Below are positions 1 through 22,000 of a stretch of DNA of 37,312 nt, piece by piece. Source of the DNA: an uncultured Elusimicrobia bacterium (GTDB lineage: Bacteria > Elusimicrobiota > Endomicrobiia > Endomicrobiales > Endomicrobiaceae). Position 1 is the stretch's first letter. Each line of letters starts with the position of its first letter. Where the stretch lies: NCBI GenBank assembly GCA_947168325.1, contig CAMVLN010000003.1, positions 1-37,312 on the forward strand, read 5' to 3'. Both the position numbers and the translations under genes were made by a program. Below the pieces are notes generated by a model. The model saw only the letters and a list, made by a program, of their open reading frames with translations, was not told the origin of the DNA and searched no databases.

Positions 1-1253
1 ATCTCTTCTGTATATCTATCCAACTTAGCTACATCGTTTTCTATTGAATATTTACTATAAAGCTCTTTAAATTTTTCCATCCCTACTTTTACATATTCCC
101 ACTCACTCGCTGTTAGTTCTGCCCCTAAATATCTCCTATAATACTCTTTGAAATCACTTATATATGAAACTTCTATTTCCGTTTCACTATTAGACAATAC
201 TGTCCTTATTGCATCTACCAACTTCCTTTCTTCTTTTAACAATTCTACTGGGTTTATCCTTGATACTTCCTCTTTTACTGCAATAAATTTATCCAACATA
301 GGATATTCTTCTTTCATATCTTTCTTCGTCGCTATACAATAATCCCTTATACATCTACTTATCTCTTTTATATCTGTTAAGTTCTCTGTCCTCTCTATTA
401 ATTCCTTATATTGCTTATATGTCACTTCCCTCTTTATCTCTTCTGTTATCCTTACTAGCTCCTCTTTTAAGGCTTTTTCGTTTATCCCTCTCCCTCTATA
501 TGTCCCTAAATATATTTGTAAATTCTTGTATCCTTCTACTTTTATATTGTTCCTCTTTGCATAACTAAATAGCCTTCTTAGATACCTTTCTTCCGTTATT
601 TCCCCTCTGTTCCTTGCTTCTATCAATTCGCTAAATCTCTCGTTCTTATACCCTAAATGTTTCTCCCTTAAAAATTCTATTTCTCTTTCTATCTTCTTTA
701 TATATCTGCCTATCTCTTCCTTAGCTTTTATTATTTTCGATAACCTCTCTATATTCCCTAAATACAATCCTTTCTCTTCTATCCCTCTTAATATCCTTTC
801 CTTGCCATTTGTTATTGAATAATATTCCGTACCTGTTAGTTTACCTTCTTTTATTAGTCCTTCTAGTATCCCTTTCTTATATCTAGTTTTTATTTTAGAA
901 AATATACTTGTATCTATTTCCCCTACTGCTCCCTCTACATACACCCTTTCTACTTTATACCTCTTTGTTATCCCTTCTATTATGCTTGATATGTTCTTTT
1001 GTACACTATAATCACAATGCAAATCTTGTATGTTTATTACCACTGTTTGGCTTCCATTATTATTTATCCCTATCACTTTCCCGTATCTCTCGTTCAACAA
1101 TCTCCCTTGTTGCTGTATCCCTTTTGTATCAAATATATTTTGCATCACTACAGAACTTACTCCAACTGCTGTATATCCTACATTACTCATCACTGTCATC
1201 ATTATGCTACTTGCTACTACTACTGCTATTGCTTTCTTTACCTTTACTATCAT
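1..1253 (-). CDS. N-terminal part of a large exported protein with a D-x-H-C...E-G (ChaN/TraB-like) domain, cut by the left window edge
   Basis: Translating the minus strand from ATG at 1253 gives about 417 codons with no stop to the window edge, so the ORF track omitted it. An in-frame TAA lies two codons upstream, which fixes the start at or below this ATG, and GGAAGG sits just before it. Residues 1-31 (MIVKVKKAIAVVVASS..) look like a signal peptide or anchor. Residues 71-109 read VVINIQDLHCDYSVQ followed by VYVEGAVGEID. The D77-x-H79-C80 and E107-G108 pairs recall the ChaN/TraB/EreA-type superfamily fold and a domain I recall from Omnitrophota/Elusimicrobiota giant proteins, where a G-T/A-E-[YF] segment and 'GIE' follow, as here. 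The rest (from about residue 165) is charged and helical. It uses many AGG, GGG and ATA codons, like the last 600 codons of the giant ORF at 19069. Function unknown. Confidence 0.8.
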   Translation of the reverse strand, partial: MIVKVKKAIAVVVASSIMMTVMSNVGYTAVGVSSVVMQNIFDTKGIQQQGRLLNERYGKVIGINNNGSQTVVINIQDLHCDYSVQKNISSIIEGITKRYKVERVYVEGAVGEIDTSIFSKIKTRYKKGILEGLIKEGKLTGTEYYSITNGKERILRGIEEKGLYLGNIERLSKIIKAKEEIGRYIKKIEREIEFLREKHLGYKNERFSELIEARNRGEITEERYLRRLFSYAKRNNIKVEGYKNLQIYLGTYRGRGINEKALKEELVRITEEIKREVTYKQYKELIERTENLTDIKEISRCIRDYCIATKKDMKEEYPMLDKFIAVKEEVSRINPVELLKEERKLVDAIRTVLSNSETEIEVSYISDFKEYYRRYLGAELTASEWEYVKVGMEKFKELYSKYSIENDVAKLDRYTEE

Positions 1254-1327
1254 TCTTTATTCCTTCCTTTTATTCCTTCTCCATTTTCCTTACTTGTATC
1301 CTTCTTATTATTCTTTTCAGCTCCCAT
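1250..1327 (-). CDS. Possible 25-codon small ORF coupled to the large protein at the left edge
   Basis: An ATG at 1327 opens a 25-codon frame (MGAEKNNKKDTSKENGEG..) that is Lys/Glu/Asn-rich. Its TGA stop overlaps the ATG of the 1-1253 gene as ATGA, a classic translational-coupling arrangement. A weak GGGA precedes its start. It has no recognisable domain and may be chance or leader sequence. It lies in the 200-base gap after hisG. Confidence 0.25.
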   Translation of the reverse strand: MGAEKNNKKDTSKENGEGIKGRNKE

Positions 1328-1453
1328 CCATCCCACACATAATATCTTTTTTTCTTTTTATTATAAAAATATATCATATATTTAAATTTATTAAAAACCT
1401 TTCTTATTCTTAATTTTACTATACACGAAAAAACATATAAAACATTTTTTATA

Positions 1454-2326
1454 CTAATAAATTATTTTATTTAAAGGATACTCTATAATTCCTTCAGCTC
1501 CAGCTCTTTTAAGTGCAGGAATAACTTTTTTTACTATATTTTCTTCAATTATAACTTCTAAAGCTATCCAATTACTATCACTTAAATTTGAAATAGTAGG
1601 TTTTTTTAATGCAGGCAAAATTTTTTCAACTTCAGGCAACTTTTTAGAAAGTATATTCATTTTTAAACCAACCATACCTTCTGCATTTAGTGCTCCTTGC
1701 AAAAGAATTGAAAGATTCTCTATTTTCTCTCTTTTTGAATTATCTTTCCAAGCATTATCATTTGCAATAAATCTTGTTGTAGACGACAGAATTTCTTCAA
1801 CTATTCTTAAATTATTTGCCCTAAGTGAAGAACCAGTTTCTGTAAGTTCAACAATAGCATCAACTAATTTACCAGCTTTAGCTTCTGTTGCACCCCAAGA
1901 AAATTCTATGTTTGCTTTAACTTTATTTTTTAAAAAATATTTTTTTGTATAGTTTAAAAGTTCTGTAGCAATCCTTTTGCCTTGTAAATCTTTTATACTT
2001 CTAACATTTGAATCATTAGGAACAGCAAGAACCCATCTAACAGGTCTAAATCCCGACTTTGCATATCTAAGTTCACAAACTTCTTTAACTTTTGCACCCG
2101 TCTCACATATCCAATCAAAACCTGTAAGTCCCGCATCAAATACTCCATCTTGAACATATTTTGCCATTTCTTGCGATCTTACTAACATAACTTCTATCTC
2201 ATCATCACTACAAGTAGGAAAGTAAGATCTTGAAGAAATATTTATTCTTATACCTGCTTTTTTAAATAATTCAACTGTTGAATCTTGTAAGCTACCCTTT
2301 GGGAACCCTAATCTTAATTTTTTCAC
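1454..2326 (-). CDS. hisG: ATP phosphoribosyltransferase, long form (HisG)
   Basis: Catalyses the first, committed step of histidine synthesis: ATP + PRPP to phosphoribosyl-ATP. The N-terminus reads [11 protein letters not shown]. The PRPP-binding loop is at residues about 156-171 ([16 protein letters not shown]). The length of 290 aa, with a C-terminal ACT-like segment after about residue 215, matches the long homohexameric form that is feedback-inhibited by histidine and needs no HisZ. The start is GTG, with GGAG about 11 bases upstream. It is the last gene of a DUF1015-cvpA-hisG run, 16 bases after cvpA. No other his gene is in the window. Confidence 0.95.
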
Positions 2327-2342
2327 CTTATTTTTTTCTCCT

Positions 2343-2825
2343 TTAAAACAACATATAATTTTGTATATTTTTTATTTTTTTATTATCAATAAAACTTGGA
2401 ATATATTTCCCAAAGATAGGCAAAGTTACTTTAGATAATTTTGAAATTATTGAAGTAGTTTTTTCAATTTTAGATTGTATTTGATTTGCATAAACATCTA
2501 AACTTGGAATTATTACATTTGCAGACAGTATGAACCATAAAAAAAAACCAAAACAAGCACCGGCTAATTTATCAAATATAGATAAATATAAAAATTTAAC
2601 TATTTTAAAAATAAAAACACCAACTAAAAATATTATTATTGCAACTGCAACAAAAACGAAATAATAATTTATACCAACTTGGTACGGATAATTTTCTGCT
2701 AATATTATCGCAAAAAAACCAGAAACTACAGCAAAAAAACTTTTAATAATTCCAGCATAATAGCCGATGTATAGTAAAAACAATAACAATAAAATTATAC
2801 TAATATCTATTGCCAAACTTAACAT
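2343..2825 (-). CDS. CvpA family inner-membrane protein
   Basis: A 160-aa protein with about four hydrophobic helices (near residues 5-27, 28-43, 52-75 and 85-108) and a polar C-terminal tail. The opening ([22 protein letters not shown]..) and the layout fit the CvpA / colicin V production family, whose members are integral membrane proteins linked to secretion and envelope function in various bacteria; the exact role is unknown. Its ATG overlaps the end of the DUF1015 gene by 7 bases, so the two are translationally coupled, and hisG follows closely. Confidence 0.8.
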
Positions 2826-4039
2826 AATGTGTGAATAACTATTCCACTAGCCAATTTTGGAAAAAAGTAAGTTGACTTTTGTGGCATATTTTCATTATTT
2901 AATGCAATTTCTTTTATAGCTTCTACAGGAGTTGCAGGAACTATAATTGCAATTTTGTTTGTTTTACTAGCCAATTCTACAGCTTCCTTTTCATCTTTTA
3001 CATAAATATATTTATCTGCAGAAACTTGTTCTTTTGGTATCAATATATTATGTAATATACTTACACCTAAATTTCTAAAAGCTTCACAATTTTCTGGCAT
3101 AGCTTTATTTAATAATTCAGTATCTTTTATAACCAATGTCCTATAATTTCCATCTTTAACAACCATAATAGGTTGAACTTTTTCTTTTTGTAACTTTATA
3201 AAATCTTCTTTAGGTAAAATATTAAAATATTTTTCAATGTTTTCCTCTAGATTTTTTGGCTCTTCAATAACTCTATGAGTAGGCCATATAGAAATACCTT
3301 CATCTTCCATTGGGCATAAAAAAGCAAGAACATAACCATATTCTTTTGTATCAGAAAAATTTGAATCTTTACCTTTTATGTATTGCAAATAATTCCATGA
3401 AGTTTCATATCTATGATGACCATCAGCAATGAATGTTTTTTTATTCTTTAAACAATTTTCAACTTCTTTAACTATTTTTTCATCACTTACAACCCAAACT
3501 TTATGATTAGTTTTTTCATCATCTGTTGCAACAGATGTTGGCTTTTTTGTAGAAATATCTTTACATAAATTAATAATTTTATTACTATCATCATTAAACA
3601 ACAAAAATATTGGGCTTAAATTTGCTTCTACAGATTTTAAAAGATTTAATCTATCTTCTTTTGGTGCCGAAAGAGTTTTTTCGTGAGCTTTTACTGCCCC
3701 TCCACAAGGATTTTCAATTTTTAATGCAGCAAAAAAACCTCTTCTTACCATTTTTATACCATGGTCCATAAATTCTTGTTCATAAAAATAAAGAGCTGGT
3801 TTATCTTCTTTTAATAAGACACCTTTAGATAACCATTCCTTAAACAAAACACTTGCTTGTTCATATTTATTTTTTGTCCCTTGTGAATCAGAAAGTTCAA
3901 GCTTTACCATATTATACTGAGATTTTTTCTTTAGTTCTTCTTTTTGACTTGGACTTATTACATCATAAGGAGGACATATTTCATTTGTAATATTTTCTTT
4001 TGCATATCTAACACCATTAAATGCCTTTATAATAGCCAT
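2819..4039 (-). CDS. DUF1015 family protein
   Basis: About 406 aa of soluble protein. Recognised by the PPYDVIS motif near the N-terminus and the family hallmark IADGHHRYET in the middle; DUF1015 proteins are predicted HTH-containing or ParB-like/kinase-associated proteins of unknown function found in Elusimicrobia, spirochaetes, Thermotogae and clostridia. The ORF track starts at a TTG five codons earlier. I prefer the ATG at 4039 (MAIIKAFNGVRY) because GGGAG lies 9 bases before it, overlapping the TTG. A good promoter lies upstream (see 4073-4102). First gene of a run with cvpA and hisG. Confidence 0.88.
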   Translation of the reverse strand: MAIIKAFNGVRYAKENITNEICPPYDVISPSQKEELKKKSQYNMVKLELSDSQGTKNKYEQASVLFKEWLSKGVLLKEDKPALYFYEQEFMDHGIKMVRRGFFAALKIENPCGGAVKAHEKTLSAPKEDRLNLLKSVEANLSPIFLLFNDDSNKIINLCKDISTKKPTSVATDDEKTNHKVWVVSDEKIVKEVENCLKNKKTFIADGHHRYETSWNYLQYIKGKDSNFSDTKEYGYVLAFLCPMEDEGISIWPTHRVIEEPKNLEENIEKYFNILPKEDFIKLQKEKVQPIMVVKDGNYRTLVIKDTELLNKAMPENCEAFRNLGVSILHNILIPKEQVSADKYIYVKDEKEAVELASKTNKIAIIVPATPVEAIKEIALNNENMPQKSTYFFPKLASGIVIHTLC

Positions 4040-19068: not shown

Positions 19069-22000
19069 CTATGCTGCACTCAAAGTCGCTCTCATTCCTT
19101 TTAGTACATCCACTGTCATTTGTGACATCTTGTTTACTGGTTTTATATTATCTTCTAACAATACCTTTATATTTTCAAAATCACTTTCTGCTACACTACC
19201 AATAAATAACATATCTGTCTTGTTCCACTGCTGTGCAATCTCTTGTGATACCTTACCTTCCAAAACTTCTTTTACCATATCTGCCAGTGTTGTTGTTTTA
19301 ACTTTGCCTATTTCTACTTTTTGTATCGCTTCACTTATATCTTCTACACTATATCCGTTTACTAGTGCCCTTATTATCCTATACACTATTTGTTTCTTTA
19401 CCTCTATATTCATTGTTGCCATATCTACTGGTTCTTTATAAAATCTTCCTATATTCTTTTCTACATATGCTACTAAACTTCCTATCACATATTGCCTTAG
19501 TGCTACTACTTTATCTTCCCCTTCTATTCCTTTATCTTCCATTATTGCTCTTATCTTTAATTCAAACTCCGGTGTCAAAATCTTTTCTAGTTTCCCTATT
19601 TCATACTCTTCCTTAATTGTTTTTATGCTCATATTATTATCACTCAAAAGTCCTTTTAATGTGTTTACTACTTCTTCCGGTGATACTTCCCCTTTATAAC
19701 TTCCCTTTGAAAAGATTTCTTCATACCCTATTTCATATCCTTCACTAAAACTTATTGTCGCTATATCTTTCTTAAATAATTTTCCAAAACTATTTCCTAC
19801 TACTGCTTTCCCTACTGATATCATTGTCTTTGTAGCTTTTGCTCCTTTCCCAAATATCTTTTCTACTAGCTCTGTTACTTTCTTAAAATTATCTTCTTCA
19901 TCACTTTCTAAGTATAAGCTAATCCTCCCTTGTGTTGCTAACTCTTTTATCTGTTTAATCATTGCTTCGTTATCTTCTTTTATTTCTTTTGCTTCTACTA
20001 CAAATATTACTTTGTTTTTAAATTCACTATCTATTCTAGCTATGTTTCCTATATTGCTTTTCCCTATCTTATACGATATTTCTTTGCCACTTTCCTTTAT
20101 TAATTCTATTACTTTATAATCTATACCTTCTTCTAATAACCTAAAACCATTCACTTTTTTATTCCCTATATATCTTTTTATCTCTTCTTTTGTAGTATCT
20201 TTACTTATACCTATTACCGGATGTAATCCTGCTTCGCTTATCTCGTTTATCTGCCATTTTGTAAACTTATTTATATCGCCTTTTTTCAATACCACTTTGC
20301 TTACTCCGGCTCTTCTTAACAATTTACATTCTCTCTTTATATCTTTCTCTCTCATCCTTTCAAAAACAGCTAACTCGGCATCTTTTAACCCTACATTCGT
20401 ATTTGCTGTTACTACTTCTGCTAGCATATCTTCTATCTCTTCGTCTGTATATTTTAATGCTTTCAACTCTTCTTTATTCTTCCTTCTTATCTTTTTAAAT
20501 TCAAATTTATTTGCATCATATTCCCCACCTGAAATTTCTTTCAGATTCTCTCTTATTACTTCATCTATTTGCAACCTATCCATCAACAAACTTGTTAATA
20601 CCTTTAATATTTTCTCTTCTGTTTTTTCTTTCCATTCTTTCCTAACTATTTCTTCATATGTTTTTTTAGATGTACCTATGAACCTAAATGCTATCTCTTT
20701 TTTCTCAACATCGTACCATGCACTTGCTTTTATTTGAACCATTTTCCCTTTGCTATCTCTTATTGTATTCCCCTGTGCATCTTTTAATATCATAACAGGT
20801 ATTGGACATATCTTTTTATATCTTTGTTGACTTGGATATTCTTCTTTACTATATAAAGTTGTTGGAATATTTTTTTCGTATTTAGTATTTCGTACTTCTG
20901 CCCCTTTGATTTTATCCATTTCTTTTTCGTCCATTACTGTTCCTATTTTGCTCAAATCGCTTGTACATAACATTATAATTCGTCCATTTTCAACAGCATT
21001 GTCTTTTAAATATTTTATAAAATCTTCGCTTGTATATTTTTTGTTTCCTTCATTTTGATCGTACACAATATACTCATATACTTCAGGCATTTTTAAAATG
21101 CTTTTCTTTGGGTTCTTGTTTTTAGTGTTGTTGTATTCTTTTTTTATATATGCATTTTCTGCATAACCATACGAATTGCTGCCTTTTTTTCGTTTTTCTA
21201 TTGTTACAAAATGTGACTGATTTCGGTTTGCTAATACATTTTTTGGTAAATATAATATTGCTGTGTCAGCTTCTTTCATTTTTGTAATCATTTTGTCAAT
21301 ATTATTAGAATCAATTTTGTATACATTTACTTCTGCTTTATTTTTCTTTCTGTTTTTGTTAATTATATCTCTTATTACTTTCATACTTGTAAACTTAATA
21401 TCACTATCGTCTATTGACAATTGTTCTTTTTTGTTAAACACTCCTTTAGCTATCAATTTATACAATATCAGTAATGCAACTTCTTCAATTGTCTTATTTT
21501 GTATTACTTTTTTTATTGCATATGTTGCACAATTAATTATATCTTTTATATCATGTTGCTCTATAATAAAAAATTTATATAATATTTTTATTATTGAGTC
21601 TTTATCGCCACCACTACTTTCTATTGCTTTTGCTAAATGCTGCTTTGCAGATGAATCATATGGGCTTAATTCGGCTAATATTTGATCATACTTACTAGCA
21701 GCAATATTTTGACTATTTACCATATTTTGTTTGTAAATCGTGCCATATTTATCATTATTTACTAAATTTATTAAATTTAAATTATTATTTCCGATTGCTG
21801 CTTCTACCTTTATAAGATAAACAATAACGAAAAAGTTGTTAGAAAGTGGTCGGTTATGTTTATCTTTGATTTCGTATGAATGGACATCACTTGTTTTGTT
21901 ATAGTGAAAAGCTGGGTATTCGGAGTCAGAGTAGGAGTATCCTGCTGTAACAAGAATGTTTTTAATATCTTCTTGATATTTTTGTAATATCTTTTCAATT

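Follow-up and report, generated by a model that had tools for sequence, protein, structure and literature searches.

What does the frame that runs off the first end of this contig encode, and what might the front part of its product do? The window, that is, the whole stretch of DNA analyzed here, is 37,312 nucleotides long and comprises all of contig G000:C3, from an assembly of 1.50 Mb in 175 contigs that is 88% complete. An earlier note, made from the sequence alone, had seen at this edge the hidden start of a second large surface protein, with a D-x-H-C...E-G domain of the kind present in giant proteins of Omnitrophota and Elusimicrobiota. We followed this reading from the frame itself to its relatives, the family of its domain, the proteins that carry the domain and, finally, the function that the domain is likely to have.

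A secreted protein at the contig edge

The frame, P0001, remains open for 417 codons from its ATG to the end of the contig (Table 1), in line with the more than 410 codons, clear start and missing stop that had been described, and its absence from the list of open reading frames is explained by a 3′ end that lies beyond the contig. Relatives on contigs C29, C126, and C143 of the same genome show that the frame did not arise by chance. The proposed signal peptide is plausible and has a hydrophobic core, which bears out the secretion part of the label "surface protein," and the sequence D-L-H-C (residues 77–80) and the stretch VYVEGAVGEID lie in the frame as claimed. The upstream frame said to be linked to it through ATGA does overlap its start; as a gene, however, this frame of 25 amino acids found no support and the next real upstream gene ends at 1454, so a small upstream gene coupled to P0001 was rejected. 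A short stretch near the start of P0001 recurs at the end of contig C143, which carries another start of the same kind, and repeats like this one are probably the source of assembly breaks.

Table 1. Features of the locus and of related loci. Positions are those of the window, except in the last row, where they are those of the loci named.
Feature	Position	Strand	Remarks
P0001, N-terminal 417 codons of a large secreted protein	3..1253	−	3′ end truncated at the contig edge
Predicted Sec signal peptide, residues 1–30, MIVKVKKAIAVVVASSIMMTVMSNVGYTA	1164..1253	−	Hydrophobic core
VINIQDLHCD motif, residues 72–81, end of strand 2	1011..1040	−	D77 and H79 invariant in 96 heads
VYVEGAVGEID, residues 104–114, strand 3	912..944	−	E107 invariant in 96 heads
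G157 in the LRGIE strand	783..785	−	Invariant in 96 heads
Predicted all-helical domain insertion, residues 161–417	3..773	−	From AlphaFold models of relatives L013 and L027
25-aa reading frame, its TGA overlapping the ATG of P0001	1250..1327	−	No support as a gene
55-bp stretch, 95% identity (52/55 bp) to the end of contig C143	1136..1190	−	C143 is another head start
P0002, the other giant of the window, 6,080 aa	19069..37311	−	Lacks its 5′ end, which is past the contig edge; 12 membrane segments predicted
Second giants upstream of ~2,000-aa proteins	L013 3–7916; L016 2–4618; L020 1–7788; L022 1–7887		At least 1,539–2,638 aa; cut by the locus edge

Relatives and the length of the protein

Within its own genome P0001 has one paralog on C29 (36% identity, in a frame of at least 2,128 aa), another on C126 (31% identity, at least 952 aa), and a third copy on C143, of which the first 43 residues precede the end of the contig. 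Sixteen further relatives, with 28–48% identity, were found among named genomes, and all belong to the Elusimicrobiota save those on two contigs labeled otherwise (L017 and L026); these carry a Clostridia/Bacillota label, have heads nearly like those of the Endomicrobiaceae and are probably misbinned. The complete relatives from the same clade, the Endomicrobiaceae, are 1,952–2,048 aa long, as the claim of a large second protein would have it, and none of the relatives has the stop soon after residue 417 that would have undone it. "About two thousand" residues is therefore our best estimate of length, and the full P0001 protein would probably measure about 2,000. We also infer a join with the end of contig C89, where a C-terminal piece of 575 aa with the last residues GILTAA is the counterpart of the last ~560 residues of these relatives (46% identity to the tail of L013 over the matched part) and is probably the C-terminus of the P0001 gene itself.

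That piece adjoins the N-terminal ~1,280 aa of another secreted protein (L097, G000:C89, minus strand, ~3–3854), which contains many GGAIYN repeats and resembles an autotransporter-type or adhesin passenger. We also observed an odd composition in three stretches of this genome, namely positions 3–1253 of the window, residues 1–500 of the C29 giant and residues 5500–6000 of P0002. They are ~70% purine, avoid T and C at four-fold sites and use ATA for 98, 98, and 89% of their isoleucine codons, respectively; in other genes of the window the share of ATA is about 0.36–0.71, and the odd composition is also absent from the same gene in sister species. Being common to heads and to one tail of this genome, it perhaps reflects gene conversion between copies.

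The domain is an N-terminal head of giant proteins

To see how widely the domain occurs, we ran profile searches and found it in 69 of 341 genomes of Elusimicrobiota, on open frames of up to 12,444 aa; the proposed link to the giant proteins of this phylum is thus confirmed, the same domain sitting on frames of several thousand residues. Positive genomes of one other class hold 17–41 copies each, and the exact DNA pattern for NIQDLH occurs up to 16 times per genome across the genus and its sister genera and mostly not at all in g3, the genus with the most reduced genomes. Among 386 genomes, mostly from outside the phylum, 11 that are not Elusimicrobiota carried the domain, on frames of up to 24,620 aa. 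In one small other phylum the domain also exists by itself, as a secreted protein of 565 aa (L135, 8139–9836, minus strand), which shows that it occurs as a unit. It was not found in families f15, f16, and f20–f26 as sampled, and two profiles found no relatives among viral contigs.

Its place in these proteins is fixed. The domain is N-terminal in 103 of 103 frames that have an upstream stop, the first start codon and the QDxH motif being 49–254 residues apart (median 90), and no more than 200 apart in 101 of them. It is therefore an N-terminal head, never internal in our sample, and we rejected the idea that it could lie anywhere within giants. A hydrophobic stretch stands directly ahead of the head in nearly all related frames, and dozens of giant proteins from bacteria of guts and groundwater begin with this front part.

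Probable assignment of the head to the Tiki superfamily

The Tiki superfamily comprises ChaN, Ere, TraB/PrgY, Tiki, and RRSP, and the earlier note had seen a likeness to its ChaN, TraB, and EreA branches. Direct searches of Pfam, NCBIfam, and the PDB with P0001 or a near relative produced nothing beyond chance matches, mostly on the helical insert. The distant heads belong to one family with the near ones (hhalign 100%, E = 2.7e-57, in profile register), and through them the ChaN part of the likeness could be recovered, which also disposes of the objection that no similarity to the ChaN/TraB clan might be detectable: the ChaN/Tiki model PF04187 matches 14 of 31 distant heads, with a best value of 4e-7, and a single head exceeds the curated cut-off (30.7–31.2 bits vs. 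27.7). Heads cover the C-terminal part of the model (positions 69–204, 42–204, or 160–204 of 213). Given this partial coverage and the single head over the cut-off, we consider the head a relative of ChaN and not a member of it; stand-alone, true ChaN proteins are present in other genomes of Elusimicrobiota.

The helical insert attracts chance Pfam matches of similar strength (PF23202, at 4.7e-6), and we therefore gave register and motif agreement more weight than the bare E-value. GGFH of the heads aligns with GNGH of ChaN, and in all 10 sequences checked (4 heads and 6 ChaN proteins) position 202 of the PF04187 profile is occupied by the histidine of this motif (GGFH or GxGH). When heads were compared with a shallow ChaN alignment the hhalign probability was just 6–10%, which we do not take as proof, and the distant heads were nonetheless in register. 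Against the PDB, a sequence search with the distant heads returned EF-hand and splicing-factor noise, on the helical insert. For the remaining parts of the claimed likeness the family models matched no head. Ere (PF05139) was rejected as the closest family, with no match in any of 110 genomes of Elusimicrobiota, and so was TraB/PrgY/GumN (PF01963), whose one match fell below threshold and came from a genome that lacks heads. Overall, the head is probably a Tiki-superfamily domain, a similarity that we trace through intermediate sequences and place at the level of the superfamily.

A further, divergent ChaN-like group was observed in family f15 (L112, L114, L115, L117, L121, L123, and L125). 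Its frames are 200–520 aa long, several of them are clustered, their match to the N-terminal part of PF04187 is weak, and one has a GETHFRFE motif.

Predicted structure and invariant residues

AlphaFold models of the relatives L013 and L027 (pLDDT 83 and 86, pTM 0.71 and 0.79) place the elements in the order β-β-α-β..β-(helical insert)-β-α-β. Two strands, the second ending in INIQDLH, are followed by a helix, a strand with VYVEG and a strand with LKGIE; then comes the insert, ~250–270 residues long and helical, and after it the two last strands with GGYH and ITITP. The models thus predict an α/β core, a β-sheet flanked by helices with the motifs at strand ends, as expected for the Tiki superfamily. 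A Foldseek search of both models against the PDB gave no significant match (best E-values of 0.15–0.25, TM-scores below 0.2), and neither did a search of the first model against viral structures. EreC (6xcs) and BcR135 (3b55) were among the top matches, at E-values of 0.25–0.45, and for both models EreC was the most probable of the top PDB matches listed (0.35 and 0.20), again below significance.

We then asked which residues the heads share. In a set of 96 heads, which had been picked in part by the first motif, the EG, and the GGxH, the invariant columns are Q76, D77, H79, Q85, E107, G157, a later Arg, the GG-x-H and a Pro. The Arg (94 of 94), G157 (96 of 96), and the Pro (92 of 92) played no part in that choice and are invariant all the same. 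DxH, E, R, and H do not vary wherever the position is present (93–96 heads, from several phyla), and an alignment of 31 distant heads with 21–35% identity gives the same invariant set. P0001 is cut before the closing strands, which would carry the Arg and the GGxH; both the Arg and the last His are present in its paralogs on C29 and C126. RRSP, a proteolytic member of the superfamily, cannot do without its Glu-x-His, Glu, Arg, and His (PMC6254334), and the spacing between Arg and His is 28–32 residues in heads vs. 29 in RRSP. Judged by sequence, the invariant D, H, E, R, and H would match the site of two His and two Glu plus Arg of Tiki proteins, with D as a conservative substitute for the first E.

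Architecture of the head-bearing giants

The relatives of ~2,000 aa consist, in this order, of a signal peptide, the head, a membrane segment near residue 730, a glycosidase-like domain, a further two or three membrane segments and a tail of ~560 residues common to other giants. The middle domain, which we read from its sequence as α-helical and possibly glycosidase-like, had no PDB match by sequence. Across head-bearing proteins the middles vary and the head is conserved. One secreted head-bearing protein of 2,298 aa (L025) has a PEP-utiliser swivel domain and a PPDK/PEP-synthase ATP-binding domain (PF00391 and PF01326) at residues 1555–2150, cytoplasmic-type parts inside an exported protein. 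A giant fragment on contig C91 of the source genome (L098, G000:C91) shares the glycosidase-like domain with the ~2,000-aa relatives; it has 11 membrane segments and, at residues 400–950, a helicase-like region with DEAD-type motifs, whose Helicase_C match (2.8e-4) is below the cut-off. Divergent SecA domains have been reported for giants of the Omnitrophota, and the helicase-like region is reminiscent of these.

Nearly all complete giants examined from Endomicrobiia end in -[LM]x[ASTGCV]AA or near variants (ILSAA, ILTAA, MLAAA, ILGAA); such C-termini are those of L013, L014, L016, L018, L020–L022, L025, L028, L160–L163, L165, L166, L168, and, in the window, the giant whose frame ends at 19069. 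This last protein, P0002, has no Pfam match and the C-terminus ATLSAA, as in head-bearing giants. In the flanks that we examined, open reading frames ending in AA were head-bearing giants, large neighbors or two short frames, possibly pieces. Such a -LxAA signature could serve as a sorting or protease-recognition signal. In several species a second giant, ending in GILAAA or similar, lies directly upstream of the ~2,000-aa protein (Table 1), so that giants occur in tandem.

Proposed function of the head

On balance, we think it probable that P0001 is the start of an exported giant whose Tiki-superfamily head most likely hydrolyzes a peptide or ester bond and may serve to process or mature the giant chain or its neighbors. 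The product would be a Sec-exported multidomain protein in which the signal peptide is followed by a Tiki-superfamily domain of ~450 residues, whose core is a parallel sheet and which carries a long helical insertion. The active site would be made up of Asp77, His79, and Glu107 together with the Arg and His past the contig end, Asp taking the place of the first Glu, and the bond cleaved would most likely be a peptide or ester bond. The head would leave the Sec channel first, fold, and then perform a step shared by all these proteins; the likeliest such step is the processing or maturing of the giant chain or of envelope neighbors. We think so because the head always stands at the N-terminus, ahead of very different middles and shared tails. 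A shared role is favored by the contrast between the head, with its conserved sequence and fixed position, and the middles, which have neither.

Alternatively, the head might be a secreted hydrolase that acts on outside targets (the surfaces of prey, host, or polymers), and the giants would be weapons or digestive platforms. Giants of Omnitrophota and Elusimicrobia are indeed read as predation or adhesion proteins in the literature (PMC10066038, PMC12057145), and Ruminimicrobiellum may live with rumen ciliates (PMC11257099). A target-facing enzyme would, however, be expected to differ among paralogs and to shift in position, whereas the head is conserved and always N-terminal and the variation sits in the middles of the giants, so we find this reading possible yet doubtful. 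It is also unlikely that the head is a ChaN-like ligand binder at the envelope, a non-enzyme in which the conserved residues would hold haem or another cofactor: no family of the superfamily other than ChaN matches heads, and Pfam gives ChaN the name of a haem-binding uptake protein, but the whole catalytic set of the hydrolytic members, Arg included, is invariant in them across several phyla. That the head lies outside the Tiki superfamily, as an unrelated α/β fold sharing similar short motifs, would agree with the lack of a significant Foldseek match and with the chance Pfam matches of the insert; we judge it improbable in view of the PF04187 match above the curated cut-off, the 14 of 31 members matched, the register at position 202 in 10 of 10 sequences and a strand order and motif placement that fit the superfamily. 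Finally, a broken or short remnant that makes no long protein is very unlikely, for although the frame is visible only up to residue 417 and its genome has few heads (3 exact motif copies vs. up to 14 in the genus), it is intact up to the contig end, full-length relatives reach 1,952–2,048 aa, and contig C89 ends in an intact C-terminal piece that matches.

Extending the maturation reading beyond P0001, we suggest, quite tentatively, that the head marks one unnamed class of giant secreted proteins over several phyla, in which a Tiki-type peptidase head would process or release the chain after export. Behind the head would come a middle that varies and contains membrane segments as well as borrowed enzyme domains, with the short -LxAA end as an addition in Endomicrobiia.

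Significance

Giant genes of Elusimicrobia and Omnitrophota were already known (PMC10066038, PMC11573180, PMC12057145), and in one survey no COGs are assigned to any giant of the Elusimicrobiota (PMC11573180). One giant-gene preprint aside (West-Roberts et al., 2023), we did not find a shared head of giants described in the literature, as far as the accessible text of the sources goes, and the Pfam and NCBIfam libraries hold no model for it. The Tiki superfamily is itself known; the shared head of giant proteins appears to be new.

Giants of the Elusimicrobiota and similar phyla count among the largest proteins predicted in bacteria, and hardly any domains are recognized in them. A common N-terminal domain with an invariant active-site pattern defines a family of them and is a means of locating true gene starts in fragmented assemblies. 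It also replaces the label "function unknown" by a question about one enzyme domain, giving these mostly uncharacterized giants a first testable activity, and the stand-alone head of 565 aa is small enough for expression and crystallization.

Comparison with known systems

The head-bearing giants, with frames of 2,000–24,620 aa here, resemble the published giants of Omnitrophota and Elusimicrobiota in length, signal peptide, several membrane segments and few recognizable domains; the accessible text of those descriptions mentions no common N-terminal domain (PMC10066038, PMC11573180, PMC12057145). Among enzymes of known structure, the Ere family (PF05139; EreC 6xcs, BcR135 3b55) supplies in EreC the likeliest, though not significant, PDB match of both models. 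With ChaN (PF04187) the likeness is one of sequence: the (G)ExH of ChaN and the QDxH of the head both end an early strand, an E follows after the next strand in both, and GxGH and GGFH stand at the same profile position. The head differs from ChaN in its helical insert of ~250–270 residues, in having D for E and in having GG-F/Y-H, not G-x-G-H; ChaN proteins stand alone, in frames of ~270–480 aa here, whereas heads mostly sit on giant proteins. RRSP and the proteolytic Tiki members, compared with the head by residue set, share with it two His, two acidic residues, and one Arg. RRSP differs in target, delivery and domain order, the head being N-terminal and having D in place of the first E, but like the head, a putative enzyme, it is a domain inside a very large secreted protein (PMC6254334).
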